Made by a program: the position numbers and the translations under genes. A stretch of 64,000 bases of DNA, from the NCBI GenBank assembly GCA_026874595.1, contig CM049320.1, positions 45,518,714 through 45,582,713 of the forward strand. Direction: 5' to 3'. This DNA is from Sipunculus nudus. Taxonomy: Eukaryota; Annelida; Sipuncula; Golfingiida; Sipunculidae. The notes beneath the pieces are model-generated. The model made no database searches. It saw only the letters and a list, made by a program, of their open reading frames with translations, and was not told the origin of the DNA. This document shows positions 1 to 46,160 of the stretch, one piece after another; position 1 is the stretch's first letter, and each line of letters begins with the position of its first letter.

Positions 1-540
1 TCTGGTTTCGGTGGAGACTTTTCATAGGTCTCTCAGTGTGTCGAAAATGAAGATTCTAGGTCCAGTCGTTACGATTTGTGCCACGCTAACAGATGACAGC
101 ATCCTCAAAGGTCTCAAAAATAGAGAAAAAAATTCGTAAAAAATCAAACAGTACAGGTGTCGCCACCAGTCTGCAGGAACTGATCGAACATCTCATGATC
201 AATATGTGTGCCAAAAATCATGACCATCAGTGATGTAGTTAATGAGATATTGAAGTTTTTGTATGAAATTTTTGACTTTTCTGGGGGGTACTTTGGGGCC
301 ACATAGCTCGAAGGATATGGGTAACAGAGACCTAATTTCTGGTTTCCAAGGAGATTTTTTATGGACCTCTCAGAATCCAAAGTTACAAGGTTCTAGGTCC
401 AGTGGTTACGATTTGTGCCTGGTTAACGGACGGACAGACGGACAGACGGACAGACAGACAGACGGACAGACGGACAGACGGACGACGGACAAAGAGTGAT
501 CGCTATAGCTCAGATGACTTTCAGTCAGCTGAGCTAAAAA
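1..540 (-). mobile_element. Helentron-like family A, terminal fragment
   Basis: This is the high-coordinate end of a family A copy whose other end lies outside the window. It holds about 1.5 copies of the family core unit: a run about calling a 'tctggggggtacttt...ccatagctcgaaggatatgg' stretch, then 'ggtttccaaggagatttttt', then 'ttaggtccagtggttacgatttgtgcc'. Next come the GACG/GACA tract at 427-487 and the terminal hairpin and GCTAAAAA tail at 506-540. The same core unit recurs at 2,590, 8,740, 10,320, 15,170, 41,750, 42,075 and 45,818. No coding capacity; short ORFs here are repeat shadows. Confidence 0.75.
427..487. repeat. (GACG/GACA)n microsatellite
   Basis: Tetranucleotide tract of GACG and GACA units just inside the terminal hairpin of a family A element. 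Equivalent tracts sit at the same place in other A copies (6,793-6,833; 23,495-23,525; 34,781-34,832; 35,330-35,385; 45,726-45,765), so the tract is part of the element and not an independent microsatellite. Confidence 0.9.
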
Positions 541-1128
541 AAAAACATTCCTTCACGCAAGTTATAATTTATTGTTTTTCATATTTAGTTAACAGCTTGC
601 AATATTTATAGTACTTTGACAATATTTAATTGTTTATTAATAGTATTAAAAATACTTTCATAGCATCACAGCTTTTAAATTTTTTATCATTTTGTTTTGT
701 CAGTTTAGGCAACCACAGAAATGCATCGGTGCTTAATTCAGTGCCTAATTTATTTTTATCTGGTGTTTCTTATGACATCATTTTGAATTGTATATGCACA
801 TTTTTTTATATATTTAATAAAATCCTGTTTTGGTCTGTTCCATCATACATTTCCTTTAAACTTTCCTATTTTCACTTTTTTACTAATAAAAAGAAATATA
901 CCACTGAACATTTGAAGAATGAAATGTTATAATAGCCCAGTTTAATCATCGGTTTACATGATCATGACAAATAGTGATTCAGTAGCTGACAGATCCATGG
1001 TGCTAAAAAATAATTTGTACCCAAATTTGAGGCTTAAAATTGGGGGGTCGTCTTATACACGGGGTCGTCCTATACACGAGTAAATACGGTAAGTAAAATA
1101 ATGCACATTAAATTAAAAACTGAAAGAA
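541..1128. other. AT-rich spacer with a short direct repeat
   Basis: AT-rich sequence without a recognisable gene. A 100-codon open frame at 630-932 (+) is low-complexity and matches nothing I know. At about 1,040-1,090 the phrase GGGGTCGTC(T/C)TATACAC occurs twice in tandem and is followed by GAGTAAATACGGTA, which looks like the edge of an old DNA transposon; no partner end was found. Confidence 0.4.
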
Positions 1129-2832
1129 AACAAGGGACCCATGGGTCACAGCGCTCAGCTGTTAAATATGATAAAAAAATATGATTTGGAAATGAAGCAC
1201 ATGCTGGTTTTGTGTGGATTTAAATAAAAGCTGTATTATGAGTTGTTGGTGTTTAGTATATATATGATTTGATAGTATCTTTGGAGACAGGGAAGAGGAT
1301 TGATTTCATTTATTTTATTGACGAATTGAGTGCTACTGTCACACAGATTTTGACTTGGCCATATAACTTATAAGCAGCACATATAATATAAGAGTTTAAC
1401 TATTTATTAAAATACAATAACAAATATTGTGCCAAATATAATTCTTATTAAAAATAATAAGAGAATCATATGATTTTTTAAAAGAAAATATAACTGAAAT
1501 GATTATTAAAATAATATAATAGAATATATTCATGAATGCATTCATGAATACATTTTAAAAGTATTTGCACTGGTATTCAAATACTTTCATTTTTACCTGA
1601 ATTCCCATTCTTATGCAAGAAATTTTGTAATGATTCATATGTGTATTCAAATACATTTGCAAAGTATTTGCACTATGTCTGGTATTTATTCAGTTTTAGC
1701 CAAACAATAATGTTGAGAATCCAGAATATACAAAATTCACAAATTTAAAAAATGATCATAAGTACCAGGTTTATAGCTTTTATTTATATTAAAAAAAATA
1801 AATGTAATATATTCACTTTGGACTACTTTCACATCAATCTACACACTAGAAACAGAAGGAATCTTGATTAACATTATCAACTGCATCTTTGTCTATCATT
1901 AATTTTCTTCATATGATCTCTAATGATTAGTAATGAATAATATGATTTATTTTTGTTATCATGAAAATTGAACTGAAAAATACCAAAGGTGACTGCATGG
2001 TGTTATTTGGAATACTTGACATTCTATCCATCCATACAATTTTCATACATCATCAGTAACTGCAAGTTAATTTCCTGTTACTCAACAACTAACAATTCCT
2101 TTCCTATTAATTTTTCTTTAATTTGTTATTAAAACCAATAAAATCTTATTAATTTATAGTTTATTTTTATGTTGTTGGTCAAAACAACTACTAGATAAAT
2201 TGGGTTGGACACCTGGATCAACTGTGGCTGGCCATTAGCTGCCTGGCTGCCCCAATGTATGCCTTGACTCAAGCGTGCATAATTTGCTTAAAGGTCAATA
2301 TGGTCAACATACAGGTGACTGAAGAGGAGCTGAGGGGAGTCTCGGTCTGACATGGTCTCATAAAAACATTAATAAAAGCTACAATTTTGGGCCAATTTCT
2401 TTCAGGGGATTATTCTTGTAAAATATTAAACAAATTTGCCTCAGTGGCCTCAGTCAAAAAACGTTTTACAGGTTTATAACAAATATGGTAAAAAAACAGC
2501 AAAATGGCTAAGTTAAGCTTCTCATAACTCAGCCAAAATCACTGAACCATGCATTAATTATCAAGATATTGGAGGTTTTGTATTAATTTTTTTACTATTC
2601 TGGGGGGTACTTTCAAGCCCCATAGCTCGAAGGATATAGGTCGCAGTGACCTAATTTCAGGTTTCCAAGGAGATTTTTTATTGACCTCCCTAGATGTTCA
2701 CTTAGAAATTTTAGGACCAGCTGTTACAATTTGTGCCCTGTTAACGGATGGCTGGACGGCCGGACATCCTGACGGACGACAGACAAAGCGCCATTCCTAT
2801 ACCTCAGTTGACTTACAGTCAGCTGAGCTAAA
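1129..2832 (-). mobile_element. Helentron-like family A copy
   Basis: Begins with AACAAGGGACCCATGGGTC at 1129 and the internal repeat GCTCAGCTG. It ends with the hairpin and TCAGCTGAGCTAAAA at about 2,810-2,832. The first ~1.2 kb is paralogous to the copies that begin at 4516 and 32,257. The 2,400-2,720 part holds a B-like 'cataactcagccaaa' segment and one A core unit, so the copy is mosaic. The tetranucleotide tract is reduced to a degenerate stretch near 2,745-2,785. No protein-coding capacity. Confidence 0.6.
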
Positions 2833-4130
2833 AATGATTGTAGCTGGCACCACCAGTCTCTATACAACGAAGCTATCACAGATATATACATTGCCAAAGT
2901 CCAGACTGATATATCGAACCCCTCCTGAGAAATAAGCGGGGACACACTGTGCAAAAATTATTGTAGGTGACACCACCAGTCTTGTATACGACAAAGCTAT
3001 TCGATAGGTATAAATATGCCCGATTTCAGGATGATATATCAAATTCCTCTATAGAAATAAGCAGGCACAAAAGTCACATACTGTGGAAAAGTCATTGCAG
3101 GTGGTGACACCTGTTTCTTAAATGAGAAAGCCATCAAAGACACACAGACAGGTCAAAATATCAGGCCAATTCATCAAACTTACCTTGAGTCTGATGCATG
3201 GGGCTGACCAAGCGTAGGTGAGAAAGGCAGTTGCCCCGAGTGAACTGTGACAATTTGCTGGCTTAGGCTACTGCACTGAGTGAACTCATGACCTGCACCT
3301 GGCTAGACTAGGTGAACTTTTGACCTGTACCTGGCTGCACTGAGTGAACTCTTGACCTGTTGCCTAATCTGATACAGTTGGCAGTCTCAAAAGCTAGAAA
3401 TAGATTGGCTCCACATGCAGCCCTGAGGGGCATGACACCCATGAGGTGATCACATGGTGACCATGAGGTGTTCACATGTCACCCATGAGGGGATCACATG
3501 CCTTGTGCTTGGCTGCACTGACTGAACTCTTGAGCTATATCTGGCTGCACTGAATGAAATCTTGATCTATTGCCAAATCTGAAACAGTTGGCAACTTCTT
3601 AACCTATTTAAATATACAGACACAATCTTGGCCTGTTGGCAAATCTGTTTACACATACTGAAAGACTTTGGCTAAAATGCTTTTTTCAAGGTGAAATATT
3701 CATTGACTTTTTATCAAAATATCTTGAATAATAAAAGATGCAGTACTTTCATTGTTAAAGGTCCAATAATTCTGCCAAAAATCATTCAAGTAAACTTGAA
3801 CAAAGGCCACCTAAGAATAATTTTTGTGCCATGTTACAGAAGTTATAATTGAAACAATAATTTTGTAGAAGAACAGTTTTGCAGTCCTCAGTTGGAGTTA
3901 GACATAATAATGTCCATAAAACCAACTTAAGCTTTTCACAACTCGACCAAAAATCAACAAACTTAGTATATTCTGATATGATTGAAAGAACCATGTCCTA
4001 GGATAATTCTTTTGAAAAATTGAACAATTCAACTTGACAGTTTCATCATTAAGCTGAAAGAGGCTAAAATTATGAGTTATTTGGCCCATAAAAAATACAG
4101 GTCAATGTAGGTGGCACCACAAAATCTGCA
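2833..4130 (-). mobile_element. Helentron-like family B, internal fragment
   Basis: Starts with 'atgattgtagctggcaccac', the same sequence that follows family A ends at 15,522 and 35,431. It continues with B core repeats (tgcactgagtgaactcttgacctg phrases at 3,260-3,360 and 3,520-3,570; 'gtgatcacatggtgaccatgagg' at 3,440-3,490) and the 'aactgaaagaggctaaaattatgag' segment near 4,050-4,080. The B left end is missing here. No gene. Confidence 0.6.
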
Positions 4131-4515: not shown

Positions 4516-6885
4516 AACAAGGGACCTATGGGTCACGACGCTCAGCTGTTATATATGATAAAAAAATATTATTTAGAAATGAGGCACATGCTGGTTTTGT
4601 GTGGTAATAAATATAAATATATAAATGAAATATTACTGATATGATTATTAAAATAATATTAAAGAATATATTCATGAATGCATTCATGAATACATTTTGA
4701 AAGTATTTGCACGAGTATTCATATATTTTCATTTTTACCTGAATTCCCATTCTTTATGCAAGAAATTTTATAATGGAGTACAAAATCATATTTGTATTTA
4801 AATACAATTACAAAGTATTTGCACCATGTCTGGAATTTATTCAGTTTTCACAAAACAATGATGTTGAGAATCCAGAATATACCAAATTCACACATTTAAA
4901 TAATGATCATAAGTATCTGGTGTTATGGCTTTTATTTATATTAAAAAATAACTAAAAAATTCATTTTGGACTAATTTCACATCAATGTACACACTAGACA
5001 CAGCAGGAATCTAGATTAATATTATCAACTGCATCTTTGTCTAATTTCCTTCATATGATCCCTAATGATTAGTAATGAATAATATGATTTACTTCTTTAT
5101 CATTAAAATTGAACTGAAAAATGCCATAGGTGACTGCATGGTGTTATTTGGAATATGTGACATTCTACCCATCGATACAAGATTCTTATATCATCAGTAA
5201 CTGCAAGTTAATTTCCTGTTATTATAAACTAACAAATTCCTTTTCTATTTTTCTTTAATTTGTTATTAAAAACCAATAAAAATTTATTAATTTATTGTTT
5301 TTTGTTATGTTCTTGGTTAAAACTACTAGATGAGTTGGGTTGGACACCTGGATCAACTGTGGCTGGCCATAAGCTGCCTGGATTCCATGTATGCCTCGCC
5401 TCAAGCGTGCATAATTTGATGAAAGGTCAACAAGGTCAACATACAGGTGACTCAAGAGGGGCTGGAGAGAGCAAAAGTCTGACAGGGTCTCATAAAAAAC
5501 ATTAATAAAAGCTACAATTTTTGGCCAATTTCTTTCAGCTTTTTTAAACTGAAAAGCTGAAATGCTTATGTGTGCATGATATGAAAATTATATCAACAGT
5601 GCTCACGGGAAACAAACGTGCCATGGTCACAGTTGGGCAAAATTTAAGGTACAAATTTTATATTTATACTAAATAAAATTTGAAAAATTCAGAACTAATT
5701 TTGGGTATTCTATGAATCTTGATTAAATAATGTTACATCCCTGACAAAAAAATCTCTAGCTTCAGCAATGCTCTTGTTAAGGGAGTAAATATATTTCTTG
5801 ATTTTTTACAAAGTGCATTATGTTTGGGCCCATAACTTAAAACAATTACACAATACTGACATCATTCTGGCATGTGCATAGAGAATGAAAAATATGTATA
5901 TTATTTATGATTAAAGTCAGATCAGTGGTTTTGATATTAGGCAGTCTTGAAGTGTAACAATGGGTTTTTAATGGAAAAATGAAGTTTTTCATTAATATCT
6001 CTAATGTCCTAGTGACCAAATTCTTGGCATGGTAGGGCATTTTGGAGACATCTAACTGTATGCCGAATTTATGGAAATTAGAGCTGAAGCTGGGGAGCTG
6101 AGCTCTTGCAAACTGCATAACACTAGCTTGATGTAAACAATATGTTACATGGTGCTTGAAAACTTGATTAAAATCTACAGTTTTTGATCAACTGGTTTCA
6201 AATTTTTGGTGTTAACAGTTGAAATGCTAACAAAAACAGGCTGTGAAAATTAAATCCACAGTACTTACAGGAAAAAAACGTGCCATGGTCAAAGTTGGGC
6301 AAAATTTAAGGTACCAATTTTTTATTTTTATTAATATTTTAAAAAATTTAAAAGATTTTCATCTAATTTTGGGTATACAATTTAATTTTGATTTATTAAA
6401 GTTATATTACTGGAAAAAAGGTCCATAGCATTAACATTTTTTGTGTTAAGTGATCAAATATCTTTTCTGATTTTTTACAAAATGCATTATGTTTGGGCCC
6501 ATAACTTTTTTAAATTAAATAATACAGACATAATTTCTGGCATGTACATAGGAACTATATAGAGGAATATTTATGGTAAGTATGAGGTAAAACAGATGAG
6601 TGGTTTTGATATTAGGCAGTCCTGAAGTGTGAAAATAGGTTTTTAATAAAAAATTGAGGTTTTTCCTTAATTTCTCAAAGGAACGAAGTTGCAAACACCC
6701 AGTTTTCGGCTTGGTAGGATATCTTGGGGACATCTAACATTATGCCAAATTTTGGATTCCTAGGTTTTACGGTTTCAAAACGTGCCACATCTACGGACGG
6801 ACGGACGGACGGACAGACGGACGGACGACGGACAATGGACCACGACTATAGCTCAGATGACTTATAGTCAGCTGAGCTAAAAATT
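4516..6885 (-). mobile_element. Helentron-like family A copy, full length
   Basis: Left end AACAAGGGACCTATGGGTC at 4516, internal repeat GCTCAGCTG, and right end hairpin plus GCTAAAAA at about 6,850-6,884. A GACG/GACA tract lies at 6,793-6,833. The interior has a twice-repeated module: a 'tgccatggtcaaagttgggcaaaatttaaggta' block followed by 'cataactt' and 'gtggttttgatattaggcagtcctgaagtg' blocks, starting near 5,610 and 6,280. It is closely paralogous to 32,257-34,882. No coding capacity. Confidence 0.75.
6793..6833. repeat. (GACG/GACA)n microsatellite
   Basis: Tetranucleotide tract beside the terminal hairpin of the preceding family A copy. Confidence 0.9.
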
Positions 6886-8930: not shown

Positions 8931-9197
8931 AACAAGTGACCCATGGGTCATGACGCTCAGCTGACTAGGAAGAGATTCGCAAAAGAAAATTTTATCATCT
9001 GAATGGTAGTATATACCCATTCAACTGAAGCATCAAACAGATTAACCAACAGGCCAAGATTGTGTCTGTATTTATATATCTCAAAAATAGAGAAAAATGT
9101 GTAAACTTTAAAAAATACAGGTGGCTCCACCAGTCTGCAGAAACTAATAACAAGAAAAATAGAGATGGTCTACAAAATAAGTTATTGTGAACATCCC

Positions 9198-9210
9198 TGA
9201 CCTATGACCT
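9198..9210 (-). promoter_or_regulatory. DR1-type nuclear receptor motif
   Basis: TGACCTATGACCT on the plus strand is two AGGTCA half-sites spaced by one base on the minus strand. The motif match is seen in the sequence. Receptor binding is not shown and the site lies in a transposon, so function is only a possibility. Confidence 0.4.
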
Positions 9211-9509
9211 TGTCCCTTTGCCCACATATCCACTGGATTCTTTCTAAATGAAGGGTAACTACTAACCACTTACATCTGGCCGGGTGTAATTACTTGGCAA
9301 CCAATGAGTGAATAACTTAGACCTGCAACCTTTAACCTCCTGACCAGCTAACCTCAAAATCAATTAGTTATTTCTTCATGCCAAAAGACCCATAATATGA
9401 AGTTTGAATCACATTCAGTGATGCATAGATGTGGCATATGTGAAAGACTGAAGGTTTGGGTTGAACAGTTTCACTTAAAATATGTTCACAAGCATTTAGA
9501 ACAATATTG

Positions 9510-9528
9510 TGACCTTGACCTTTGACCT
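9510..9528 (-). promoter_or_regulatory. Overlapping ERR/SF-1-type and DR1 motifs
   Basis: TGACCTTGA at 9510-9518 is the complement of TCAAGGTCA, the extended half-site of ERR/NR5A receptors. TGACCTTTGACCT at 9516-9528 is a perfect DR1 (the RXR/HNF4 type). Both lie in the tandem core of a family A copy. Presence is certain, function unknown. Confidence 0.45.
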
Positions 9529-9651
9529 TTTGAACTCAACATCAATAGGCTTTTCCCCTATTGATAGGTAAGCCATATATGACAGATGGAAAGTAGAGAT
9601 TAAAAAGTTTGCCTGAAAATGACTCCACGCAAGAAGAGGGTGCTGTGAACT

Positions 9652-9664
9652 TGACCTTTGACCT
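9652..9664 (-). promoter_or_regulatory. Perfect DR1 motif in repeat unit
   Basis: TGACCTTTGACCT, identical to the DR1 at 9516-9528, in the next unit of the same tandem core. Confidence 0.4.
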
Positions 9665-9947
9665 CAAAATCAACAGGTCTTTTCTCCTGTTGGCAGAGAA
9701 GCGATATCAGTGCTGAAAGGTTTGGAATAAAAGGTCTAGCTTGAAATGTGTCCACAACCTTTTCAAAGAAGTTGAATCCTGTGACCCTGACCTTTGACTT
9801 TGTGACCTGTAATACAGACGTAATTTCTTGCATGTACATAGGATTCTTCTCCCACTTAGTAGGTGAGCTATATGTGAAAGATCAAAGAATTGGGATGAAA
9901 GTTTGGCTTAAAATGCATCCACAGGCTTTTCAAAGAAGTTGGTTCTG

Positions 9948-9966
9948 TGACCTTGACCTTTGACCT
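9948..9966 (-). promoter_or_regulatory. Overlapping ERR/SF-1-type and DR1 motifs
   Basis: TGACCTTGACCTTTGACCT, a 19-base repeat of the composite at 9510-9528, followed by a further half-site (TGACCT) at 9970-9975. Confidence 0.45.
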
Positions 9967-10306
9967 TGTGACCTCAAAATAATTATGGTTCTTCCCCTGT
10001 TGGTAGGTGAGCTGTATGTGAAAGATGGAAGGTTTGGGATGAAAATTTTGGCTAAAAGAATTATTTCTTGGGTGTGCAAACACACCCCATAACTTCGAGA
10101 ATATAGGTCGCAGTAACCTAATTTCAGGTTTGCAAGGAGATCTTTTTTGAACCTCTAAGACTGCATAGGGTTCATGGCCCTAGCCCCTACGGTTACGATT
10201 TGTGCCCTGCTAACGTATGGACAGCCGGCCGGACCGACAGACGGAAGGATGACGGACAAAGACCCATCGCTATAGCCCAGCATGACTGAAAGTCAGCTGA
10301 GCTAAA

Positions 10307-10763
10307 AAAAAATCGAAAAAATACTGGTGGTGCCACCAGTCTGCAGAAACTGATGAAACACTCCATGATCAATATCCATGCAAAGAATCATGGTGATTAA
10401 TGCATTAGTTGTTCAGATATTTGAGCTTTTGTATCAAATTTTTCGTTATTCTCGGGGGTACTTCAGAGCCCCATAGCTTGAAGAATATGGGTAATAGAGA
10501 CCTAATTCCAGGTTTCCAAGGAGATTTTGCATGGACCTTTCTGGATGTAAAGTTAGAAGATTCCAGGTCCAGTGGTTACGATTTGTGCCTTGTTAACGGA
10601 CAGACGGCCGGATAGCCGGAGACCAGATGGCGGACAGACAAAGAGTGATCGCTAGAGCTCAGATGACTTACATCAAATTATAAAAATTATAATTTTTATA
10701 AAATATAAATATTTTAAAGTGTTTCATATACAGCGACCTCCTTGTGGCCTTTTTACAAAAATG
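10307..10763 (-). mobile_element. Family A core unit with decayed terminus
   Basis: One complete A core unit (10,320-10,600) with the GGTGGTGCCACC palindrome at its start, then a degenerate tract (10,598-10,645) and the 'agctcagatgacttaca' start of the terminal hairpin at about 10,657-10,673. The second hairpin arm and the TAAAAA tail are lost. The remainder to 10,763 is AT-rich. Confidence 0.5.
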
Positions 10764-11997
10764 AACAAGGGACCCATGGGTCACATTGCTCAGCTGAATT
10801 TTGGAAAATATTAGTAACTGCAAATAATTTTTATTTCTTTTGGTTTTTCATGTATATTATCATTAGAAAAGCTATGAGAAAATGGCCCTGCTAAAATGAA
10901 ACTCTGTAAATTATAGAATAATGGACATGAGCTAAACCATTAAGTGATGCACCAAGGGAACAAATAGGCCTACGGTAAGTGTTATATAAAAGTAACATTT
11001 CATAAACAAATAATGTGTGAAGGTAATTAAGTTTTCAAATGTTAAATATATTGTCATATGAGTTAAAAATTAATCCAACAAAGTTTGACCAATATTCCTA
11101 ATTTTAATACTAAGTTAACAGTTTTATTCACACCTAGGCCCTGCCAACTTTAAGAGATATGAATGAAATGCTACAAAGTATTTATATCTTCTTAAATTTT
11201 GTCAGTTAGCACTTACATTAGATCCTAATATTTTATCACATTTGAATATTAGGATTAAATTCCTTATTTTTTTTTCTTTAACAACAATCAAAATTGTCCA
11301 AGTCTCATCAAAAAGAATTTATCTAACATTAAAATTACAAGATTCATCTTGTTTATTAGTCCTGTGTATTGAAGGGGTGGGTGGGGGAGGGGTCTCCGTT
11401 GTTACTGCTCGTTGCTGAAAAAAATGTTAATTTTAAGATTCATCTAGTTCATAGTACAGGTCTGTCAACAGAATGGGGGTGAGGTGGGGGGGGGGGGGGG
11501 AGGGGGGGAGGGAGCAGGGGTTGCCAGAGAAAAAGGCTTCCTGTGGTATGGTATTAACTGCAGACAGCCTGATCAAGCTCAACTCATTGGAGAGAGCTGC
11601 ACTGAATGACCTACAGTCACCAAAGTGGACTGCTTGACAATGTAAGGGAATACAACAAGAGCCTCATTTTGCAGCTTTTATTTTCAAATTTCAGATTTTA
11701 ACAGATTAAATCCTTATGTGCACATGCTGTGAAAATTAAATCCACAGTACTTACAGGAAAAAAGCGTGCCGTGGCCAAAGTTTGGCAAAATTTAAGGTAA
11801 CAATTTTTATTTTTGCTAATATTTTTAAAAATTTAAAAGATTTTGATCTTATTTTGGTTATACAATTTAATTTGGATTTATCAAAGTTATATTACTGGAA
11901 AAAAGTCCTTAGCTTTAACATGTTTTGTGCTAAGCGATCAAATATCTTTTCTGATTTTTTACAAAATGCATTATGTTTGAGCCCATAACTTTTTAAA
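10764..11997 (-). mobile_element. Family A copy, left part, interrupted by family C
   Basis: Left end AACAAGGGACCCATGGGTC at 10,764 with GCTCAGCTGA. It contains two poly-G/purine tracts (11,376-11,392 and 11,484-11,512). From 11,690 it carries the family block 'ctgtgaaaattaaatccacagtacttacagg' found in other A copies. The copy is cut at 11,997 by a family C insertion and resumes at 13,181. Confidence 0.6.
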
Positions 11998-13180
11998 CTG
12001 GTATACTGGTAGTCGACAAGCGACTACGTGTATCCGCCAAAATCAGAGAAGGACGGGTGAAGTGAGGCATGGATTGAGTGGCAAGAGGATATAGAGTTAC
12101 TATGTTACATATTAGAATGACTCTCTGCCTAATAAACATGATTGTAGGTGGCGCCACTTGTTATCTGAACGAGAAACTATCCAAGATGTATACATATGCA
12201 AAATTTCATGTGGAAAAGTCAAACCACTGCAGAGATTTGAGTGATTTTATCCAACACCAGACAAACAGATGGACACTTTGCAAACATGGCTGCAGGTGGT
12301 GCCACCATTTTTGTGTATGTTATAAAGCGATCCAAGGGCTACATTTGTGTAAAAAATTTTCCTGATTGGTCAAACGGTTCCAGAGATATAAGCAATAATG
12401 TCTGCAGCGTGAACGTGAATGTAGGTGGCGCCACCTGTCATAAAATCAAGAAAGCTATCCAGGATGTATAAGCATCCCGAATTACAGGTAATTTGGTCAA
12501 ACCACTGCAGAGATATGAGTGATTTTAACCCAAGGCAGACAAACAGATGGATGCTGTGCAAAAATGGGTGCAGGTGGCGCCACTATTTTTGTGTATGTTA
12601 TAAAGCTATCCAAGGGCTACATTTGAGTAAAAAATTTTTTCTGATTGGTCAAACGGTACCCAAGATATGAGCTTTGATGTCTGCAGCATTAACGTGAATG
12701 TAGGTGGCGCCACCTGTCATAAAATCAAGAAAGCTATCCAGAATGTATATGCATGTCGAATTTTAAGTGAATTAGTCAAATCACTGCAGAGGTATGAGTG
12801 ATTTTAACCCAAGGCAGACAAACAGATGGACACTGTGCAAACATGGTTGCAGGTGGCGTCACCTTTTGTTGTGTATGTTATAAAGCTATCCCAGGGCTAC
12901 ATTTGTGTAAAAAATTTTTCCTGATCGGTCAAACGGTTCCCGAGATATGTGGGTTTATGTGTGGAAACAGACGCACAAACGGAAGCTGGGCAAAGAGGAA
13001 AGGTCAGAGGTCAAGGTCACTTGGTTAGGCACCAGTTCACATGTGACCCGATAATTTGTGTAAGTTTCGGAAAAATCCGTCCAGTAGTCTCACAGGATTT
13101 CTCCAGAAACGAACGCCGCAGCGGCAGAGGAACCCGGTCAAAAACATAGTATCCGCAAACCTTCGTTTTGGCGGATACAA
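11998..13180 (-). mobile_element. Helentron-like family C copy (C1)
   Basis: Left end CTGGTATACTGGTAGTCGAC with hairpin arms GTAGTCG/CGACTAC and TGTATCCGCC; right end TTTTGGCGGATACAA at 13,166-13,180. The core is a tandem array of about 278 bp per composite unit. Each unit carries two GGTGGCGCCACC palindromes (perfect at 12,424 and 12,703) and 'tcaaacggttcc(c)gagatatg' phrases. The flanks ('cataactttttaaa' and 'ttatataatacag') rejoin to match uninterrupted A copies near 6,505-6,530, so the element inserted without a target duplication. Confidence 0.75.
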
Positions 13181-14547: not shown

Positions 14548-14725
14548 TAAACAAGGCCTACAGGTCTAATGCGAACCTGTGCATTGGGAAATACACCAGG
14601 TATAATGCTTCAATGCTGGACCATTACTTCTCATGTATATGAACAATGCAGGTACTAAACATTTTGAATAAGAAACAATTACACAAACATCACTGCTGAA
14701 ATTCTGGCATGGGTGCACACAACAC

Positions 14726-23494: not shown

Positions 23495-23525
23495 GGACGG
23501 ACGGACGGACAGACGGATGGACGAC
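23495..23525. repeat. (GACG/GACA)n microsatellite
   Basis: Tetranucleotide tract beside the terminal hairpin of the family A copy. Confidence 0.85.
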
Positions 23526-23577
23526 GGACAATGGACCACGACTATAGCTCAGATGACTTATAGTCAGCTGAGCTAAA

Positions 23578-28249: not shown

Positions 28250-28261
28250 CCCTGAAAATAT

Positions 28262-28786: not shown

Positions 28787-28838
28787 AATGTGTACTTAGG
28801 TACAGGTACAAGTACCTGGCCCCAACCCTGCTTGAGAA

Positions 28839-29368: not shown

Positions 29369-29547
29369 AAACAAGGCCTACAGGCCTAGTGCAAACCTGT
29401 GCATTCTGAATACACCAGGTATAATGCTTCAATGATGGACCATTACTTCTCATGTATATGAACAATGCAAGTACTAAACATTTTGAATAAGAAACAATTA
29501 CACAAACATCACTGCTGAAATTCTTGCATGGGTGCACACAACACAAA
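29369..29547 (-). mobile_element. Family B left end, split by a family A insertion
   Basis: AACAAGGCCTACAGGCCT at 29,369, then the B block ending 'gggtgcacacaacac'. An A copy follows at once (29,548); B resumes at 35,432. Confidence 0.7.
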
Positions 29548-32256: not shown

Positions 32257-34882
32257 AACAAGGGACCTATGGGTCACGACGCTCAGCTGTTATATATGAT
32301 AAAAAAATATTATTTAGAAATGAGGCACATGCTGATTTTGTGTGGTAATAAATATAAGCTGTATTATGAGTTGTTGTTGTTTAGCTTATGTATGATTTTG
32401 ATAGTACCTTTGGAGACAGGGAAGAGGATTGATTTCATTTATTTTATTAACAAATGGAGTACTACTGTCACACAGATTTTGACTTGGCCATATAACTTAT
32501 AAGCAGAACATATAATATAAGAGTTTAACTATTTATTAAAAAAATTACAAATATTGTCCCAAATATAATTTTTATTAAAAATAAGAGAATCATATGATTT
32601 TTTAAAATGAAATATAACTGATATGATTATTAAAATAATATTAAAGAATATATTCATGAATGCATTCATGAATACATTTTGAAAGTATTTGCACGAGTAT
32701 TCATATACTTTCATTTTTACCTGAATTCCCATTCTTTATGCAAGAAATTTTATAATGGAGTACATAATCATATTCGTATTTAAATACAATTACAAAGTAT
32801 TCGCACCATGTCTGGTATTTATTCAGTTTTCACCAAACAATGATGTTGAGAATCCAGAATATACAAATTTCACACATTTAAATAATGATCATAAGTACCT
32901 GGTTTTATGGCTTTTATTTATATTAAAAAATAACTGTAAAAAATTCATTTTGGACTAATTTCACATCAATGTACACACTAGACACAGTAGGAATCTAGAT
33001 TAATATTATCAACTGCATCTTTGTCTATCATTAATTTCCTTCATATAATCCTTAATGATTAGTAATGAATAATATGATTTACTTCTTTATCATTAAAAAT
33101 GAACTGAAAAATGCCATAGGTGACTGCATGGTGTTATTTGGAATATGTGACATTCTACCCATCGATACAAGATTCTTATATCATCAGTAACTGCGAGTTA
33201 ATTTCCTGTTATTATAAACTAACAAATTCCTTTTCTATTTTTCTTTAATTTGTAATTAAAAACCAATAAAAATTTATTAATTTATTGTTTATTGTTATGT
33301 TGTTGGTTAAAACTACTAGATGAGTTGGGTTGAACACCTGGATCAACTGTGGCTGGCCATAAGCTGCCTGGATTCTCCCCTCAAGCGTGCATAATTTGAT
33401 GAAAGGTCAACAAGGTCAACATACAGGTGACTCAAGAGGGGCTGGAGAGAGCCAAAGTCTGACAGGGTCTCATAAAAAACATTAATAAAAGCTACAATAT
33501 TTGGCAAATTTCTTTCAGCTTTCTAAACTAAAAAGCTGAAATCCTTATGTGTGCATGATATGAAAATTATGTCAACAGTGCTCACGGGAAACAAACGTGC
33601 CTTGGTCACAGTTGGGCAAAATTTAAGGTACTAATTTTATATTTATACTAATAACTTATAAAATTTGAAAAATTCAGAACTAATTTTGGTATTCAATTGA
33701 ATCTTGATTAAATAATGTTACATCCCTGACAAAAAAAATCTCTAGCTTCAGCAATGCCCTAGTTAAGGGAGTAAATATATTTCTTGATTTTTTTACAAAG
33801 TGCATTATGTTTGGGCCCATAACTTAAAAAAAATACACAATACTGACATCATTTCTGGCATGTGCATAGTGAATGTATAGAAAAAAAATGTATATTATAT
33901 ATGATCAAAGTCAGATCAGTGGTTTTGATATTAGGCAGTCTAAAAGTGTAACATTGGGTTTTCAATGGAAAAATGAAGTTTTTCATTGATATCTCGAAAG
34001 AATTAAGTCCTAGTGACCAAATTCTTGGCATGGTAGGGGATTTTGGAGAAATCTAACTGTATGCCAAATTTAAGGAACTAAGAGCTGAAGCTCGGGAGCT
34101 GAGCTCTAGCAAACTGCATAACACTAGCAATATGTGACATGGTGCTTGAAAACTTGAATAAAATCTAGTTTTTGATCAACTGGTTTCAAATTTTTGGTGT
34201 TAACAGTAGAAATGCTAACAAAAACATACTGTGAAAATTAAATCCACAGCAGTTACAGCAAAAAAACGTGCCATGGTCAAAGTTGGGCAAAATTTATGGT
34301 ACCAATTTTTTATTTTTGCTAATATATTTGAAAATTTAAAAGATTTTGATCTAATTTTGGGTATACAATTTAATTTTGATTTATAAAAGTAATATTACTG
34401 GAAAAAAAGTGCTTAGCTTTAACAAGTTTTGTGTTAAGTGATAAAATTTCTTTCCTGATTATTTACAAAATGCATTATGTTTGGGCCCATAACTTTTTTA
34501 AATTAAATAATACAGACCTAATTTCTGGCATGTACATAGGAATTATATAGAGGATTATTTATAGGAAATATGAGGAAAAACAGATGAGTGGTTTTGATAT
34601 TAGGCAGTCCTAAAGAGTGAAAATAGGTTTTTAATAAAAAATTGAGGTTTTTCCTTTATTTCTCAAAGGAATGAAGTCGCAAGGACCCAGTTTTCCGCTT
34701 GGTAGGAGATCTTGGGGACATCTAACATTATGCTGAATTTTGGATTCCTAGGTCTTACGGTTTCAAAACGTGCCACATCTACAGACGGACGGACGGACGG
34801 ACAGACGGACGGACAGACGGACGGACGACGGACAATGGACCACAACTATAGCTCAGATGACTTATAGTCAGCTGAGCTAAAA
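32257..34882 (-). mobile_element. Helentron-like family A copy (inner)
   Basis: Left end AACAAGGGACCTATGGGTC at 32,257; right end hairpin and GCTAAAA at 34,850-34,882; GACG/GACA tract at 34,781-34,832. It is the close paralogue of 4,516-6,885. The outer element reads 'gccaatattta' before and 'aatttaacaaattttgatc' after it, which together match uninterrupted A copies near 6,325-6,360 and 34,320-34,350; the insertion left no visible duplication. Confidence 0.8.
34781..34832. repeat. (GACG/GACA)n microsatellite
   Basis: Tetranucleotide tract beside the terminus of the inner A copy. Confidence 0.9.
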
Positions 34883-35329
34883 ATTTAACAAATTTTGATC
34901 TAATTTTTGGTATACAATTAAATTTTGATTAATAAAAGTTGTATTACTGGAAAAAAGTCCCTACCTTTAACACTTTTGGTCTTAAGTGACCAAATATCTT
35001 CCTGTTTTTTTTACAAAGTCCATTATGTTTGGGCCCATAACTTTTTTAAATTACATAATACTGACTTAATATCTGGCATGTACATAGGAACTATATAGAG
35101 GAATATTTATGGTAAATATGAAGAAAACCAGATGAGTGGTTTTGATTTTAGGCAGTCCTGAAGTGTGAAAATAGATTTTTAATAAAAAATGAGGTTTTTC
35201 CTTAATATCTCAGGGGAACGAAGTCCTATTGACCCAATTTTTGGCATGGTAGGAGATTATGGGGACATCTAACTGTATGACGAAATTCAGATTCGTAGGT
35301 CCAACGGTGTCGAAACGTGCCAGTCTTAC

Positions 35330-35385: not shown

Positions 35386-35431
35386 ATGGACCATGACTAT
35401 AGCTCAGATGACTTATAGTCAGCTGAGCTAA

Positions 35432-37470: not shown

Positions 37471-39204
37471 TTGTATCCACCAAAACAGAGTTTTGCGGAT
37501 ACTATGTTTTCAGCTGCACGCCGCCGCCGCCGCCGCGTAGGTGTCCGGAGAACTCCGTAACCGCTGGGCGGAATTTTACGAAACCCAGGATTATGTTCGG
37601 GTCACATGTGAACTGCTGCGCCCCGATTTTGTTTTGACCTCTGACCTTTCCTCTGCGCTCTGCGTCGGTTTGTGCGTCTGTTTCCACACATAAACCCACA
37701 TATCTCGGGAACCGTTTGACGGATCAGGAAAATTTTTTTGCACAAATGTAGCCCTTGGAGAGCTTAATAACATACACAAAAAATGGTTGCGCCACCTGCA
37801 ACCATGTTTGCACAGTGTCCATCTGTTCGTCTGCCTTGGGTTAAAATCACTCATATTTCTGCAGTGATTTGACTAATTCACCTGAAATTCGGCATGCGTA
37901 TACATCCTGGATAGCTTTTCTGATTTTATGACAGGTGGCGCCACCTACATTCACGTTTACGCTGCAGACATCCAAGCTCATATCTCGGGAACCGTTTGAC
38001 CGATTGGGCCAAAATTTTGCATGTGTATAGATCTCACATAGCTCTTTATCATACGCAAAACTGGTGGCGCCACTTGCAGCCATTTTTGCACAGCTCCCCT
38101 CTGTTTGTTTGCCATGGGATAAAATCACTCACATCTCTGCAGTGATTTGACTAATTCACCTGAATTCGGCATGCGTATACATCCTGGATAGCTTTTCTGA
38201 TTTTATGACAGGTGGCGCCACCTTCATTCATGTTCACGCTGCAGACATCCAAGCTCATATCTCGGGAACCGTTTGACTGATTGGGCCAAAATTTTGCATG
38301 TGTATAGATCTCACATAGCTCTTTATCATACGCAAAACTGGTGGCGCCACCTGCAGCCATTTTTGCACAGCTCCCCTCTGTTTGTTTGCCATGGGATAAA
38401 ATCACTCACATCTCTGCAGTGATTTGACTAATTCACCTGAAATTCGGCATGCGTATACATCCTGGATAGCTTTTCTGATTTTATGACAGGTGGCGCCACC
38501 TTCATTCACGTTCACGCTGCAGACATCCAAGCTCATATCTCGGGAACCGTTTGACCGATTAGGCCAAAATTTTGCATGTGTATAGATCTCACATAGCTCT
38601 TTATCATACGCAAAACTGGTGGTGCCACCTGCAGCCATTTTTGCACAGCTATCGTCTGTTTGTCTGCCATGGGAGAAAATCACTCATATCTCGGCAGTGG
38701 TTTGACATATCTGCCTAAAATTTTGCTGGTTTATACATCCCCGACAGCTCTCTTGATTTTATGACAGGTGGCGCCACCTGCATTCTAGTTTATGCAGCAG
38801 ACATCCAAGCTCATATCTTGGGAACCGTTTGACCGATTGGACCAAAGTTTTGCATGTGTATAGTTCTCACATAGCTCTTTATCATACACAAAACTGGTGG
38901 CGCCACCTTCAACCATTTTTGCACAGGGTCCATCTGTTTGTCTGCCACGGGCTAAAATCACTCATAAACATATAGTGGTTTGACTTATCTGCCTCAGATT
39001 TTGCATATGTATACAACTTGGATGGCTTTCTGGATTTTGTGGTAGGTGGCGCAACCTACATACACCATTTGGCTGCAGACATCCATGCTAATATGCAACA
39101 CTTCACTCTATTTCCCCTTGCCACTCAATCCATGCCTCACTTCACCCGTTCCACTCTGATTTAGGCGGATACACGTAGTCACTTGTCGACTACCCGTATT
39201 CTAG
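37471..39204 (+). mobile_element. Helentron-like family C copy (C3), opposite orientation
   Basis: Starts TTGTATCCACCAAAAC at 37,471 and ends with GGCGGATACA, the hairpin GTAGTCACTTGTCGACTAC and CCCGTATTCTAG at 39,204. The core is a regular 278-bp tandem array: GGTGGCGCCACC is perfect at 37,933, 38,211, 38,340, 38,489, 38,767 and 38,896. The array is well preserved, and open frames of ~84-93 codons on the minus strand recur once per unit; they are repeat shadows without known domains. Confidence 0.8.
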
Positions 39205-39414
39205 TTATCTCTAATTTCATCAAACCAGCGGGAAAACTCTTCTGGTTTTGCAGTGTTATGCCCGCGTGGCGAAATTGTGAAAATCTTTTGAATGGTTTGG
39301 GAACCGAATTGTCTGGTCTTGATGCGTCTGGTTAATATGCCACTATGATTGCCACTATGATTGCCACACAATTAATTGTCGATGCTAACAACAATTAGTG
39401 TGATTCTAAAAAAA
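39205..39414. other. Unassigned spacer
   Basis: Short non-repetitive stretch between C3 and the resumption of family B. It includes a 'gccactatgatt' phrase given twice in tandem (39,340-39,364). Nothing coding. Confidence 0.35.
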
Positions 39415-41739
39415 ATTGAACGATTCAACTTGACAGTTTCATCATAAACATTTTAAGCTGAAAGAGGCTAAAATTATGAGGGTTGGCCCATAAAAAAACG
39501 ATCAATGTAGGTGGCACCACAAAATCTGCAAATTCAAATATGAGTCATGTGACCAACACTTGCACAATACTTGGTAATGCTAGCTTCTGTCATTTCTGAG
39601 ATAACTATGTCATTACACTTACTTGGCCAAATGACTGTTCAAATTTGTGTAACTCCACTAAAATTCATCAAATGCAAACCATTTGAACAAACTTGAGAGG
39701 GCTTGCCTCTGCGATCAATTTTGCAAAAAATTGAACATTTTGGCTGGACCGTTTCGGGAAGAAGATTTTTAAAGGTTTTTCAGCTTTTTCCCTATAAAAT
39801 CTTAGTAAATGCAGATAGCAAAAAATAAGCTGAATCCCACAACATTTGATATGTGACAGATTATTGCATAAAATCTGGGGATGGTAGCTCCTGCCATTCC
39901 TGAGAAATTATGAGTTAATGTACAGATGACCAATGACCCCCATACAAAAAAAAGGTCAATGCAGATGGCGCCACCTATACCTGAATTTCATATATGACTC
40001 ATGTGACCAACACTGGCATAAAATTTGGTGATGATAGCTCCGGCCATTTCTGAGACTATCATTTTAGTATGCTTTTTAGACAGATGACTAAGTTCAACTT
40101 CCTGTAACTCAGCCAAAATTCACCCAACTTGAACTATTCAAACAAACTTGAGAGAGATGGTATATAAGATTATTTCTGTGATATATTGAACAATATGGCT
40201 AAACAGTTGTGCAGGAGAAGATTTTTAAAGGTTTATTTAGCTTTTTCTCTATAAAATCTAAGAAAATGCAGTTTTTCAGATGTCTAATTTTTTGCATTAA
40301 ATTTCATGATGCTAGCTCCAGTTGTTTTTGAAATAGTATGGGTTAACGTACAGATGGCGTACGCCGCCACACCATCGCATTAGCTAACAGGTTCGCTAAA
40401 AATTACTACAGATGCATATTGAATGCAAAATTATAATACAGATACATCTCACTGATGGCAAAATTTTGAATTAAGTTGAGTATGGATACCTATTATTTAT
40501 AGTCCATGTACAGCCGTCTTAATATACCAACAGAGAGCTGTATACCCTTGATTGTAAACATTGCCTGGCATAAGGAATATCTAAAATCATAAATCTACAT
40601 TTTTGAAAAGTTTTTAAAAAACATTCTTTTCAATATTAACCATAGATAACCTGAAATCTTAATGTCTAGAGGCATGATGTAATGGATGCTGATAAACGGG
40701 TGCCAGGCTAGATGTATCTGCTTCACACAGCTTACATATATGGTAGAATGACTCAATTCAATCTTTATAATTCAGCCAAAATACATTCTTTGGAACCATA
40801 AAAGACAATTATTATAAAAATTATTCAGGGGATTATTCTTGTAAAATATTAAACAAATTTGCCTCAGTGACCTCAGTCAAAAAACACTTTACAGGTTTAT
40901 AACTAATATGGGAAAATACAGCAAAATGGCTAAGTTAAGCTTCTCATAACTCAGCCAAAAATCACTGAACCAAAACCATTTGAACAAACTTGAATTATCA
41001 ACATCAATGGATAATTAGTGTCAGAGATTTAAGAATTTGGCCCAGCAGTTTTTGAGAAGAAGATCTTTGTAGCCACTGAGCTGAAATGGGCTGTTATGGC
41101 ATATGACTAAATTCAGCTTCCCATAACTCAGCCAAAAGTCACTGAACTGAGACCATTTGAACAAACTTCAGAAAGCACTACCCTAGGATCATTTCTGTGC
41201 GATATTAAAACATTTTGCCATATGGTTTCAGAGAAGAAGTTTTTTGTAGCCGTTAGTATGATACGGGCACTGATGACCCCCATACAAAAAAGGCCGATGC
41301 AGGTGGCATAAAATTTGGTGATGATAGCTCCAGCCTTTCCTTAAATTGTAATTTTACTATGCTTTTTTGGACAGATGACTAAGTTCAACTTCCTGTAACT
41401 CAGCAAAAAATCACCTAACTTAATTCATTCGAACAAACTTGAGAAAGATTGTTCCAGGAATCATTTCTATGAAATACTGGACAATTTGGCTGAACAGTTT
41501 CGGAGAAGAAGATTTTTAAAGCTTTTTTAGCTTTTTCACAATAAAACCTAAGAAAATGCAGTTAGCCAAAAAATAAGCAAAATCCGATAGAGTTCTTTAG
41601 ATGACTAGTTTTTTGGCCTAAAATTTCGTGATGCTTACTCTTGCTGTTTTCAAGATAGTAAGGGTTAACGTACAGACAAAGGACGACAGACACCAGACGA
41701 TGCCACACCATCGCATAAGCTCATATGTTCGCTAAAAAT
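39415..41739 (-). mobile_element. Helentron-like family B, right part with two termini
   Basis: Starts inside B (gaacgattcaacttgacag) and carries two B-type termini, ACAGGTTCGCTAAAAA at 40,387-40,402 and ATATGTTCGCTAAAAA at 41,724-41,739. As in 24,643-28,249, the first terminus is followed by the linker 'attactacagatgcat' and a second B module, so the double-ended structure was copied as a unit. Confidence 0.65.
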
Positions 41740-42411: not shown

Positions 42412-43560
42412 AACAAGGGACCTATGGGTCACTGTGCTCAGCTGACGTTAACCTTGAAGGTAAAAATCTAAAATTATATCTAATGGAGATAAAGTGTAAG
42501 AGGAAGAGGTAATAAAGGCCATGGTTGGTTTATATGATTGGTTTGTATTGATGAGCAAGAAATTGTTGCAAAAAATATTTTGTGATCTGACCATGTGTTT
42601 CCTAATGTTGAAACTAAAGCATGTGAGCAGTTTGTGAACAAATGATCTGTACTATTACCATGATCATTAATTGGTTTTTCGATTAACTGTTGACATTTAA
42701 GTAGTTTACACATTCGTTCAATTGAATCTATTTTTTTGTATAATATATATTATTAAATATATGTGTATTTTTTTATGAAATGTATACAGTTGAAATATAG
42801 CTAATTAACAACATAAAACAGGGCAAACAAAGCCGGATCTCAAATTCTGCTGAATTTTTTATCACATCAATTATTTTATAATTTAAGTTTATATTTCTAT
42901 ACATTTCCAATTTAACATATATATCTGAATATAAAAGTTGATTCATAATTCTCAATTGCATCATCATAAATCTCAATCTTGTCAGATAACACCACATCAT
43001 GCATACAAATGTTTATTTATTTTTTACCACAAAAATATATCTTTTAAATCTGCAAAACAATAAATATCTAAAAATAATACTTGATTTAAATTTCACAATT
43101 TTTAATTGTGTCTTTATTTATCCATAATGTGCTTCATATTTTATAATAATTTAAGCATACTGATGGATCCATAAATATTTGTTAAAATCATTTAAAAGAA
43201 AATTGATTTCTTTAAAAATGCTACATTACACAACATTGCATCTTCTGGATTACACCTTGAATTATTTTTTCAAGGAAAGTTTTTGCATATAGGAGTGGAA
43301 ACAGCATTACAATTAAGGAGATACAGTGAAAACAATAACAATTACTGCATAACACTTGGTGGGTTGGGTTTGGGGGGGGGGGGGGGGGGAGTGATGATTG
43401 GGGTGGTGATATGAGAATAACTGTACACCTGTCACAGCAGGGGATCTCCCCCAGTGACTGTAACAAATCAGAAACCCTGGCATAGCTGACTTCCAGTGAC
43501 CTGGAGTAGGACCCTGCATCTGTAATCAAAGCAAGTGACTACAGAAATAAAAATCAATAA

Positions 43561-45103
43561 CTAGAATACGGGGAGTCGACAAGCGACTACTTGTATCCGC
43601 CTAAATCAGAGTGGAACGGGTGAAGTGTTGCATATTAGCATGGATGTCTGCAGCCAAATTGTGTATGTAGGTTGCGCTACCTGCGAAAAAATCCAGAAAG
43701 CTCTATACACATGCAAAACTTTGGCCCAATCGATCAAACGGTTCCCAAGATATGAGCTTGGATATCTGCTGCATAAACTAGAATGCAGGTGGCGCCACCT
43801 GTCATAAAATCAAGAGAGCTGTCGGGGATGTATAAACTTGCAAAATTTTAGGCAGATATGTCAAACCACTGCCGAGATATGAGTGATTTTATCCCATGGC
43901 AGACAAACAGATGGGAGCTGTGCAAACATGGCTGCAGGTGGCGCCACCAGTTTTGCATATGATAAAGAGCTATGTGAGATTTATACACATGCAAAATTTT
44001 GGCCCAATCGGTCAAACGGTTCCCTAGATATAAGCTTGGATGTCTGCAGCGTAAACTTGATTGTAGGTGGCGCCACCTATCATAAAATCAGAAAAGCTAT
44101 CCAGGATGTATAAGCATGCCGAATTTCAGGTGAATTAGTCAAGTCACTGCAGAGATATGAGAGATTTTAACCCAAGGCAGATAAACAGATGGACACTGTG
44201 CAAGCATGGTTGCAGGTAGCGCCACCATTTTTGGTGTATGTTATAAAGCTCTCCAAGGGCTACATTTGTGCAAAAGAATTTTCCTGATCGGTCAAACGGT
44301 TCCCGAGATATGAGCTTGGATGTCTGCAGCATAAACGTGAATGTAGGTGGCGCCACCTGTCATAAAATCAGAAAAGCTATCCAGGATGTATACGCATGCC
44401 CAATTTCAGGTGAATTAGTCAAGTCACTGCAGAGATATGAGTGATTTTAACCCAAGGCAGACGAACAGATGGACACTGTGCAAACATGGTTGCAGGTGGC
44501 GCCACCATTTTTGGTGTATGTTATAAAGCTCTCCAAGGGCTACATTTGTGCAAAAGAATTTTCCTGATCAGTCAAACGGTTCCCGAGATATGAGCTTGGA
44601 TGTCTGCAGCATAAACGTGAATGTAGGTGGCGCCACCTGTCATAAAATCAGAAAAGCTATCCAGGATGTTTACGCATGCCCAATTTCAGGTGAATTAGTC
44701 AAGTCACTGCAGAGATATGAGTGATTTTAACCCAAGGCAGACGAACAGATGGACACTGTGCAAACATGGTTGCAGGTGGCGCCACCATTTTTGGTGTATG
44801 TTATAAAGCTCTCCGAGGGCTACATTTGTGCAAAAAATTTTTCCTGATCGGTCAAACAGTTCCCGAGATATGTGGGTTTATGTGTGGAAACAGACGCACA
44901 AACGGTCGCAGAGCGCAAAGGAAAGGTCAGAGGTCAAAACAAAATCGGGGTGCAGCAGTTCACATGTGACCCGAACATAATCCCGGGTTTTGGAAAATTC
45001 CGCCCAGCGGTTACGGAGGAGTTCTCCGGACACCTACGCCGCGGCGGCGGCGGTGTGCAGCTGAAAACATAGTATCCGCAAAACTCTGTTTTGGCAGATA
45101 CAA
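43561..45103 (-). mobile_element. Helentron-like family C copy (C2)
   Basis: Begins CTAGAATACGGGGAGTCGAC with hairpin and TTGTATCCGCC; ends TTTTGGCAGATACAA at 45,103. The core is a tandem array of 278-280 bp units, with GGTGGCGCCACC perfect at 43,788, 43,937, 44,066, 44,346, 44,495, 44,626 and 44,775. Removing it rejoins 'caataa' and 'ctagcttaatttt', which matches the empty site 'caataactagcctaattttt' in the paralogue at 32,075-32,094. Insertion was therefore clean, without target duplication. Confidence 0.85.
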
Positions 45104-45725
45104 CTAGCTTAATTTTCAAGCTTTTATTTTCAAATTTCAGATTTAGACAAACTAAATATTTATGTTTACATGCTGTGAAAATTAAATCAATGGTGCTTAC
45201 AGGAAAAAAAATTGCCATGGTCAAAGTTGGGCAAAATTTAAGGTACTGATTTTTTTTTTATGCTAAAAACTTTAAAAATTTACAAAATTCAGATCTAATT
45301 TTGGGTAAACAATTGAATCTTAATTAAACATAGTTATATACTTGAGAAAATAGACTCTAGTTTCAAAATTTTTCATGTTAAGTGAATTATTATTTTTCCT
45401 GATTTTTTACAAAGTCCATTATGTTTGGGCCCATAACTTAAAGAATTTATACTTTACAGACTTAATTTCTGGCATGTACATAGGAACTATAGAGAGGAAT
45501 ATTTTTTGGTAAATATGAAGAAAAACAGATGAGTGGTTTTGATATTAGGCAGTCCTGAAGTGTAAAAATAGGATTTTAATAAAAAATTGAGGTTTTTCCT
45601 TAATTTCTCTAAGGAACAAAGTCGCAAAGACCCAGTTTTCGGCTTGGTAGGAGATCTTGGAGACATCTAACATTATGCTGAATTTTGGATTCCTAGGTCT
45701 TACGGTTTCAAAACGTGCCACATCT

Positions 45726-45765
45726 ACGGACGGACGGACGGACGGACGGACAGACGGACCACGGA
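45726..45765. repeat. (GACG/GACA)n microsatellite
   Basis: Tetranucleotide tract beside the terminus of the family A copy. Confidence 0.9.
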
Positions 45766-45816
45766 CAATGGACCACGACTATAGCTCAGATGACTTATAG
45801 TCAGCTGAGCTAAAAA

Positions 45817-46160
45817 TACAGGTTGCGCCACCAGTCTGCAGAAACTGATGAAACCCTCCATGATCAATATCTATGCAAAGAATCATGGTGATCAATGTGT
45901 TAGTTGTTCAGTTACTTGAGCTTTTGTATCAAATTTTCCATTTTTCTGGGGGGTACTTTGGAGCCCCATAGCTCGAAGAATATTGGTAACAGAGACTTAA
46001 TTCCAGGTGTCCAAGGATATTTTAATGGAAATCTCTGGATGTAAATTTAGAAGATTCCAGGTCCAGCGGTTACGATTTGTGCCCTGTTAACGGACAGACG
46101 GCCGACGGACAAAGAGTGATTGCTAAAGCTCAGATGACTTACAGTCAGCTGAGCTAAAAA
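45817..46160 (-). mobile_element. Family A core unit with terminus
   Basis: One A core unit followed by a short GACG-type tract (46,093-46,112) and the terminal hairpin with GCTAAAAA at 46,125-46,160. Confidence 0.65.

Follow-up and report, generated by a model that had tools for sequence, protein, structure and literature searches.

Three Helentron-like families with a common end plan in Sipunculus nudus, and a Rep/helicase parent for one of them

A 64,000-nucleotide stretch of the Sipunculus nudus genome (C15:45518714-45582713 of the 1.43-Gb genome; referred to below as the window) carries the ends of three repeated families, here called A, B, and C, which differ in sequence and are laid out alike. 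This raises the questions of what kind of element they are and whether a single Rep machinery moves them all. Of positions 1-46160, 72.5% have a same-strand match elsewhere in the window, and the region is therefore a nest of repeated elements. With high confidence, we read these families as three lineages of Helitron2-type Helentrons, non-autonomous elements (HINEs) which spread by the rolling-circle route and land at T-tracts, the partner of A being a Rep/Pif1-helicase element of one Rep clade.

Common end plan and abundance of A, B, and C

In all three families, a short inverted repeat stands at one extreme end and recurs subterminally at the other end, where a palindrome adjoins it. In element orientation, the typical form of A is TTTTTAGCTCAGCTGAC ... 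TCAGCTGAGC nnnn TGACCCATGGGTC CCTTGTT (end pair by repeat, GCTCAGCTGA/TCAGCTGAGC), that of B is TTTTTAGCGAACCTGTG ... CACAGGTTCGCATT AGGCCTGTAGGCCT TGTT, and that of C is TTGTATCCGCC ... GGCGGATACACGTAGTCGCTTGTCGACTACCCGTATTCTAGTT. The asymmetric inverted repeat of C is GTATCCGCC/GGCGGATAC, accompanied by a 3' hairpin and a 5' hairpin, and its other end reads ...GGCGGATACAA. After the palindrome, the 3' terminus usually reads CT(T/A)GT and then T. Four C copies run past the GTAGTCG hairpin to AACT(A/G)G.ATA..GG before it, and, read in element orientation, C therefore ends in ...CTAGTT, or CCAGTT in one copy, which resembles the ...CTTGTT of A and B.

The preliminary description of this DNA had named a set of end strings, all of which occur in the window, and had read them as one terminal grammar of the Helitron2/Helentron kind. 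The shared layout of A, B, and C held up, as did the outermost bases common to A and B (TTTTAGC at the 5' end and CCTTGTT at the 3' end), and the layout matches the definitions of Helitron2 and Helentrons in the sections of PMC3627910 and PMC4067079 drawn on here. The placing of the C terminus at the GTAGTCG hairpin had to be given up, the element running on to CTAGTT.

Folding of single DNA strands, one copy per family, predicted a 5' hairpin in A and C and none in B. The A 5' end folded at -10.6 kcal/mol (z -5.25) into a hairpin that includes the 5' repeat; the C ends gave z -4.58 (5') and z -1.85 (3'), and the B 3' end gave -4.0 kcal/mol (z -1.27). The 5' hairpins of A and C add to the preliminary description, which mentioned none.

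The ends were then counted genome-wide against reversed-pattern controls. The palindromic end of A, AACAAGGGACCCATGGGTC, occurred 22,935 + 22,770 = 45,705 times with up to 2 mismatches (control, 8 + 4 = 12), that of B 4,865 + 5,015 = 9,880 times with up to 2 mismatches (control, 0), and that of C 6,360 + 6,486 = 12,846 times with up to 3 mismatches (control, 0), while the opposite (5') end of A had 16,826 + 16,598 = 33,424 exact matches (control, 0). These counts exclude chance for the A, B, and C ends, and the end motifs of the three families are thus confirmed as real and far above chance.

Rep/helicase elements and the parent of family A

A genome-wide search with the Rep domain profile PF14214 (Helitron_like_N) gave 143 matches, several of them in open frames of 1,600-2,426 amino acids. 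We examined 38 Rep loci, six with long flanks and a further twenty and twelve with about 3.4 kb of 3' flank. Pfam domains were determined for three loci: Helitron_like_N and PIF1 were present in all three and Exo_endo_phos in two, at 4e-13 in L007 and at 3e-4, under the Pfam cut-off, in L015, an example of the alpha clade. This clade was defined in a midpoint-rooted Rep-domain tree of 26 of the 38 loci plus L001-L006, in which the A-bearing loci fell in one 16-member group, alpha (support 0.994); membership of the twelve second-batch loci was judged from the similarity of their C-terminal coding part to E5 or E1, not from the tree.

Downstream of Rep, a sense A 3' end is present in 19 of the 25 alpha loci (E4, E5, L020, L024, L025, L026, L029, L031, L032, L033, L035, L037, L038, L062, L064, L066, L069, L070, and L073) versus 0 of 12 others (E1, E2, E3, L019, L021, L022, L023, L027, L030, L034, L067, which is unclassified, and L068; Fisher p 1e-5). 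L071 was left out of the alpha count because its flank stops less than 100 bp from the coding part. By orientation, sense ends were present at 19 loci and antisense ends at two (L024 and L038), each of which also has a sense end. The stretch between the end of the coding match and the A 3' end measured 990, 991, 991, 991, and 992 bp in five copies with palindrome variant v2 and 494, 494, 498, 498, 530, and 530 bp in copies with variant v3 (both variants are described below); it was 1,261, 1,288, and 1,338 bp in L032, L033, and L064.

On the 5' side, the alignment of two v2 copies, one on C17 and one on C5, begins within one base of TTTTTAGCTCAGCTGAC, and before it their sequences diverge. With A ends on both sides, these alpha copies span, by their coordinates, about 14.9 kb (C17, read gap-free) and about 16.1 kb (C5, of which about 3 kb in the middle were not read). 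The 5 kb preceding Rep at L026, L035, and L029 and the 10.7 kb preceding it at E4 showed no A 5' end; at L026 and E5 one was located only at a greater distance, and L032 has an antisense A 5' end in this upstream region. The preliminary description had proposed looking for an autonomous Rep-helicase element with the same ends, and for family A one was found in the alpha clade, with ends on both sides. The A end belongs to the Rep element, which is the protein-coding parent of family A. Around the Rep genes of the E1-E3 clade (L007-L012), there were no A, B, or C ends on either strand and no convincing other 3' end. In both long autonomous copies (L080 and L081), the 5' end is repeated internally, about 0.7-1.1 kb further in.

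We compared the two parts of the A 3' end across 39 matches to its mask in all the sequence retrieved (up to 4 mismatches; at least one match is chance-like). The repeat TCAGCTGAGC was nearly invariant. The second palindrome pair was A-T in 28 of the 39, G-C in 10, and broken in 1, and the outer pair was T-A in 22 and unpaired in 17. By the first sense end of each locus, variant v1, GACCCATGGGTC with CCTTG or CCTAG, was seen at E4 and L020; v2, TGACCCATGGGTCA/CTTGTT, at E5, L025, L026, L035, and L062 and, with a different spacer, at L070; and v3, TGGCCCATGGGCCA/CT(A/T)GT, at L029, L031, L032, L033, L037, L038, L066, and L073 and, with small changes, at L064 and L069. Two successive ends were present at L020, L025, L029, and L070. 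The A copies of the window are mostly v1. Variants v1 and v2 each occupy their own part of the alpha tree, the v3 loci being the remainder, without resolved branching. The A palindrome varies mostly with the Rep subclade and by paired changes, and the inverted repeat is nearly fixed.

Separate lineages or one mobilization system

The preliminary description had gone on to treat A, B, and C as one system with a swapped recognition stem, and the genome and the Rep loci spoke against this. With the exact patterns tried genome-wide, hybrids of the A repeat with the B palindrome and of the B repeat with the A palindrome both numbered 0. In the flanks read at the 38 Rep loci, which are part of all Rep matches, the 3' end that comes first after Rep was never of type B or C; the C 3' end was absent from all 38 of these 3' flanks, and one C 3' end lay upstream of Rep at E5. 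L030, whose Rep lies outside alpha, has a fourth type of 3' end, GCGGGGGCATTC GTGTCG TTC CGACAC ATCTAGTTT (L030 939-975), which also occurs at E4 12849-12885 (in L014), about 4.7 kb beyond the A end. Given the missing hybrids, the rank of B and C at the Rep loci, and the end type of L030, the shared outer bases look like an ancestral or mechanistic constraint.

Composite ends were also collected. A B-type 3' end with a different spacer has 895 exact copies, and in at least 364 copies genome-wide (exact 10-mer required) it is followed, at a distance of 125-155 bp, by a C 3' hairpin. Among 100 matches listed, the composite spans 160-179 bp, mostly 172-173 bp; examples are window 13315-13540, L040 9338-9560, and C1:7261372-7261543, and the C repeat is degenerate in both composites read (13500 and L040). 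The composites, a family of elements in their own right, may have arisen by nesting of C within a subfamily of B or may be C elements that captured a terminator.

That one Rep machinery moves all three families, the recognition stem alone being exchanged, seems unlikely to us: the outermost bases common to A and B, the CTAGTT common to C and variant v3, and the nearly fixed spacing of the composites speak for it, and they are opposed by the absence of hybrids with the exact patterns tried, by the lack of B or C as a first 3' end in the flanks read, by the restriction of the A end to one Rep clade with a fourth end type outside it, and by the lack of a 5' hairpin in B. Separate Helentron lineages with a common ancestral plan fit the data as well or better.

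The insertion sites bear on a second alternative. The A copy nested in B at 14728 was compared with the unfilled B site in L041, and no duplication beyond the A-tract was seen at this single comparable nested insertion, where the tract leaves an ambiguity of two bases; target duplications had been named beforehand as the sign of a cut-and-paste element. The same A-B spacing of 178 bp occurs at 14550/14728, at 29370/29548, and in L066 (1274-1466; B end 178 bp after the A end), so that in 3 of 3 cases seen A sits at the same A-tract inside B, in the orientation of B; this tract is a possible insertion hot spot. Head-to-tail A junctions, in which a 5' end abuts the next 3' end, numbered 106 versus about 7 expected by density, or about 15-fold.

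It is very improbable that A, B, and C belong to the cut-and-paste elements with subterminal inverted repeats, whether as miniature inverted-repeat transposable elements or otherwise; their short inverted repeats and the want of a long open frame in the window copies would suit such elements, against which stand the asymmetric repeat positions, the nested site just described, and the Rep/helicase protein-coding parent of A. The idea that A ends lie near Rep genes as chance neighbors from a very abundant family (about 16 A 3' ends per Mb and strand) can practically be dismissed in view of the split between alpha and other loci, the excess of sense over antisense ends, the constant spacing past the coding match, and the common 5' start of two copies.

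Several observations weigh against the identification of the families as Helentrons with a Rep parent for A. No recognized A end was found at 6 of the 25 alpha loci (E6, L028, L036, L063, L065, and L072), and the sense match at L024 is weak, with 3 mismatches, an imperfect palindrome, and a position 1,850 bp past a truncated coding match, besides its antisense end. The match of palindrome to subclade is imperfect at L024, a decayed v1-like end among v3 loci, and at L070, and v3 does not resolve in the tree. The 5' flank compared for the C17 copy (E5) extends over only about 33 bp. An autonomous B or C element was not found among the 38 Rep loci. The B 5' end had no predicted hairpin (z 0.11, one copy folded), and B is therefore called Helentron-like rather than Helitron2 in the strict sense; the A 3' palindrome folds poorly as a single strand (-1.9 kcal/mol, z 0.77) and so may act as a double-strand site. 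Finally, transposition itself was not observed.

As published Helitron work would suggest, Rep may nick beside the 5' repeat, and the 3' palindrome would terminate the displaced strand. The two inverted repeats could pair and so mark both ends of one element, an idea set out in PMC3627910 in the sections used here, and B and C would presumably use Rep lineages of their own.

Neighboring copies, relation to known elements, and implications

The orientation of neighboring copies was scored on C1, 0-28 Mb, with the first 100 exact sites of each family among the matches listed and A sites below 3.1 Mb left out. Below that point the A sites listed are all on +, whereas B and C have sites on - there and the A list has a gap, so that the A listing is probably incomplete. 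Pairs 5-20 kb apart agreed in 13/13 cases for B-B, 14/14 for A-A, 11/12 for B-C, 11/13 for A-B, 5/5 for A-C, and 3/5 for C-C, and the agreement faded by about 100 kb. Orientation runs gave z -4.3 for B and z -2.8 for A above 3.1 Mb. Compared with 90 label shifts at 5-100 kb, agreement was 43/65 for B-C (null mean 32.3, maximum 42), 30/38 for A-C (mean 19.1, maximum 30), and 43/54 for the A 5' end with B (mean 25.5, maximum 40). A general rule is contradicted by C alone, which had no excess of orientation runs (z 0.2), and by A-B, whose 44/70 lay inside the shift null (mean 33.8, maximum 52). Extra ends at Rep loci were sense at L020, L025, L028, L029, L066, L069, and L070 and antisense at L024, L031, L032, L038, and L071, so the neighbors are mixed. 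The shared orientation is most simply explained by nesting at one-sided T-tracts. A landing pad at the 5' T-tract was rejected as its cause, the 106 abutting A junctions being too rare.

The window was scanned for ends with mismatches allowed (Table 1). It holds 10 palindromic (3') and 10 opposite (5') ends of A, the latter exact GTCAGCTGAGCTAAAA in 9 of the 10 sites, and 4 palindromic (3') and 5 opposite (5') ends of B; all 29 A and B ends are on a single strand. Two C 3' ends are on that strand and one is on the other, with a degenerate fourth at 13500. The window has 5 open reading frames of at least 120 amino acids, and an Rfam scan at gathering scores gave no match. A tandem array with a 129-bp unit at 62007-63986 contains none of the scanned Helentron ends.

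Table 1. Ends and copies of families A, B, and C in the window. Coordinates are window positions; 5' and 3' are in element orientation, which is the - strand for most copies; pairing of 5' with 3' ends into copies is inferred from their order.
Feature	Positions	Strand	Basis
A 5' end (TTTTTAGCTCAGCTGAC in element orientation)	524..540	-	end scan; matching 3' end beyond window
Family A copy, two ends found	1129..2834	-	end scan
Family A copy, two ends found	4516..6883	-	end scan
Family A copy, 3' end TGACCCATGGGTCACTTG	8931..10308	-	end scan
A 3' end, palindrome and inverted repeat	10764..10797	-	end scan
Family C copy, ~278-bp internal repeats; 3' end 11996, 5' hairpin end 13180	11996..13180	-	
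Composite: B 3' end, spacer, C 3' hairpin (13500), C body, reaching next B copy	13315..14549	-	
Family B copy holding nested A copy	14550..19131	-	end scan; end pairing inferred
Nested family A copy, 178 bp within B, at A-tract (T-tract on element strand)	14728..15522	-	
A 3' end	19999..20032	-	end scan
Family A copy, two ends found	21668..23579	-	end scan
Family B copy, two ends found; 5' end with one mismatch	24643..26858	-	end scan
B 5' end	28231..28249	-	end scan
B 3' end; A 3' end 178 bp inside	29370..29402	-	end scan
A 3' end, B site identical to that at 14728	29548..29581	-	
Family A copy, two ends found	32257..34883	-	end scan
A 5' end with short A-tract (CAGCTGAGCTAA)	35420..35431	-	end scan
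Family C copy, opposite orientation, two ends found	37471..39206	+	
B 5' end	40384..40402	-	end scan
B 5' end, two mismatches	41720..41738	-	end scan
Family A copy holding nested C copy	42412..45816	-	end scan
Family C copy, two ends found	43559..45103	-	
A 5' end	46144..46160	-	end scan

A literature search with the end sequence strings gave no transposon title among the matches listed. As far as the cited sections go, Helitron2 elements have asymmetric terminal inverted repeats of 8-15 bp, with the 5' repeat near the extreme end, the 3' repeat immediately preceding the 3' hairpin, and T-rich insertion in the examples given (Bao and Jurka 2013, PMC3627910). The families described here share with them the asymmetric repeats, the 3' repeat upstream of the hairpin, the apparently T-rich sites, and, in A and C, the 5' hairpin, and differ in that B has no predicted 5' hairpin and in that the A palindrome varies while its inverted repeat is nearly fixed. 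For Helentrons and HINEs, distinct element families may have a repeat in common (Thomas et al. 2014, PMC4067079, in the sections cited). The likeness to these lies in subterminal inverted repeats common to autonomous and non-autonomous copies, the 3' palindrome, the apparently T-rich target, and the Rep/helicase plus endonuclease; in contrast to them, A, B, and C were matched here to no described family, and the count of ends runs into the thousands or tens of thousands for each. The Pacific oyster Cg_HINE (PMC7492417) is likewise non-autonomous, with GTCC/GTCY-type left-flank microsatellites and satellite-like internal repeats, to which the GTCCGTC runs of A and the ~278-bp repeats of C correspond. 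An autonomous partner is linked here for A, whereas none could be related to the oyster element in the sections cited.

The end pattern is thus real but of a known element kind, with the parent identified for one family, A. A more far-reaching and, in our estimate, doubtful proposal is that the end-codes of Helentrons evolve in modular fashion: the inverted repeat would be the fixed tag of a Rep clade, the palindrome would drift with the Rep subclade, and a foreign 3' terminator might be gained by read-through, as in the joined B/C 3' ends, with insertion strand-directed over tens of kilobases, which would align unrelated families and might record which way replication or transcription proceeds.

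Linking A, with its tens of thousands of ends, to a protein-coding parent answers for one family the kind of question left by the oyster study. With paired data on Rep subclade, inverted repeat, and palindrome, the part of the end that Rep reads becomes open to test, and the composites and the shared orientation give starting points for studying how ends are captured and how insertion is steered.

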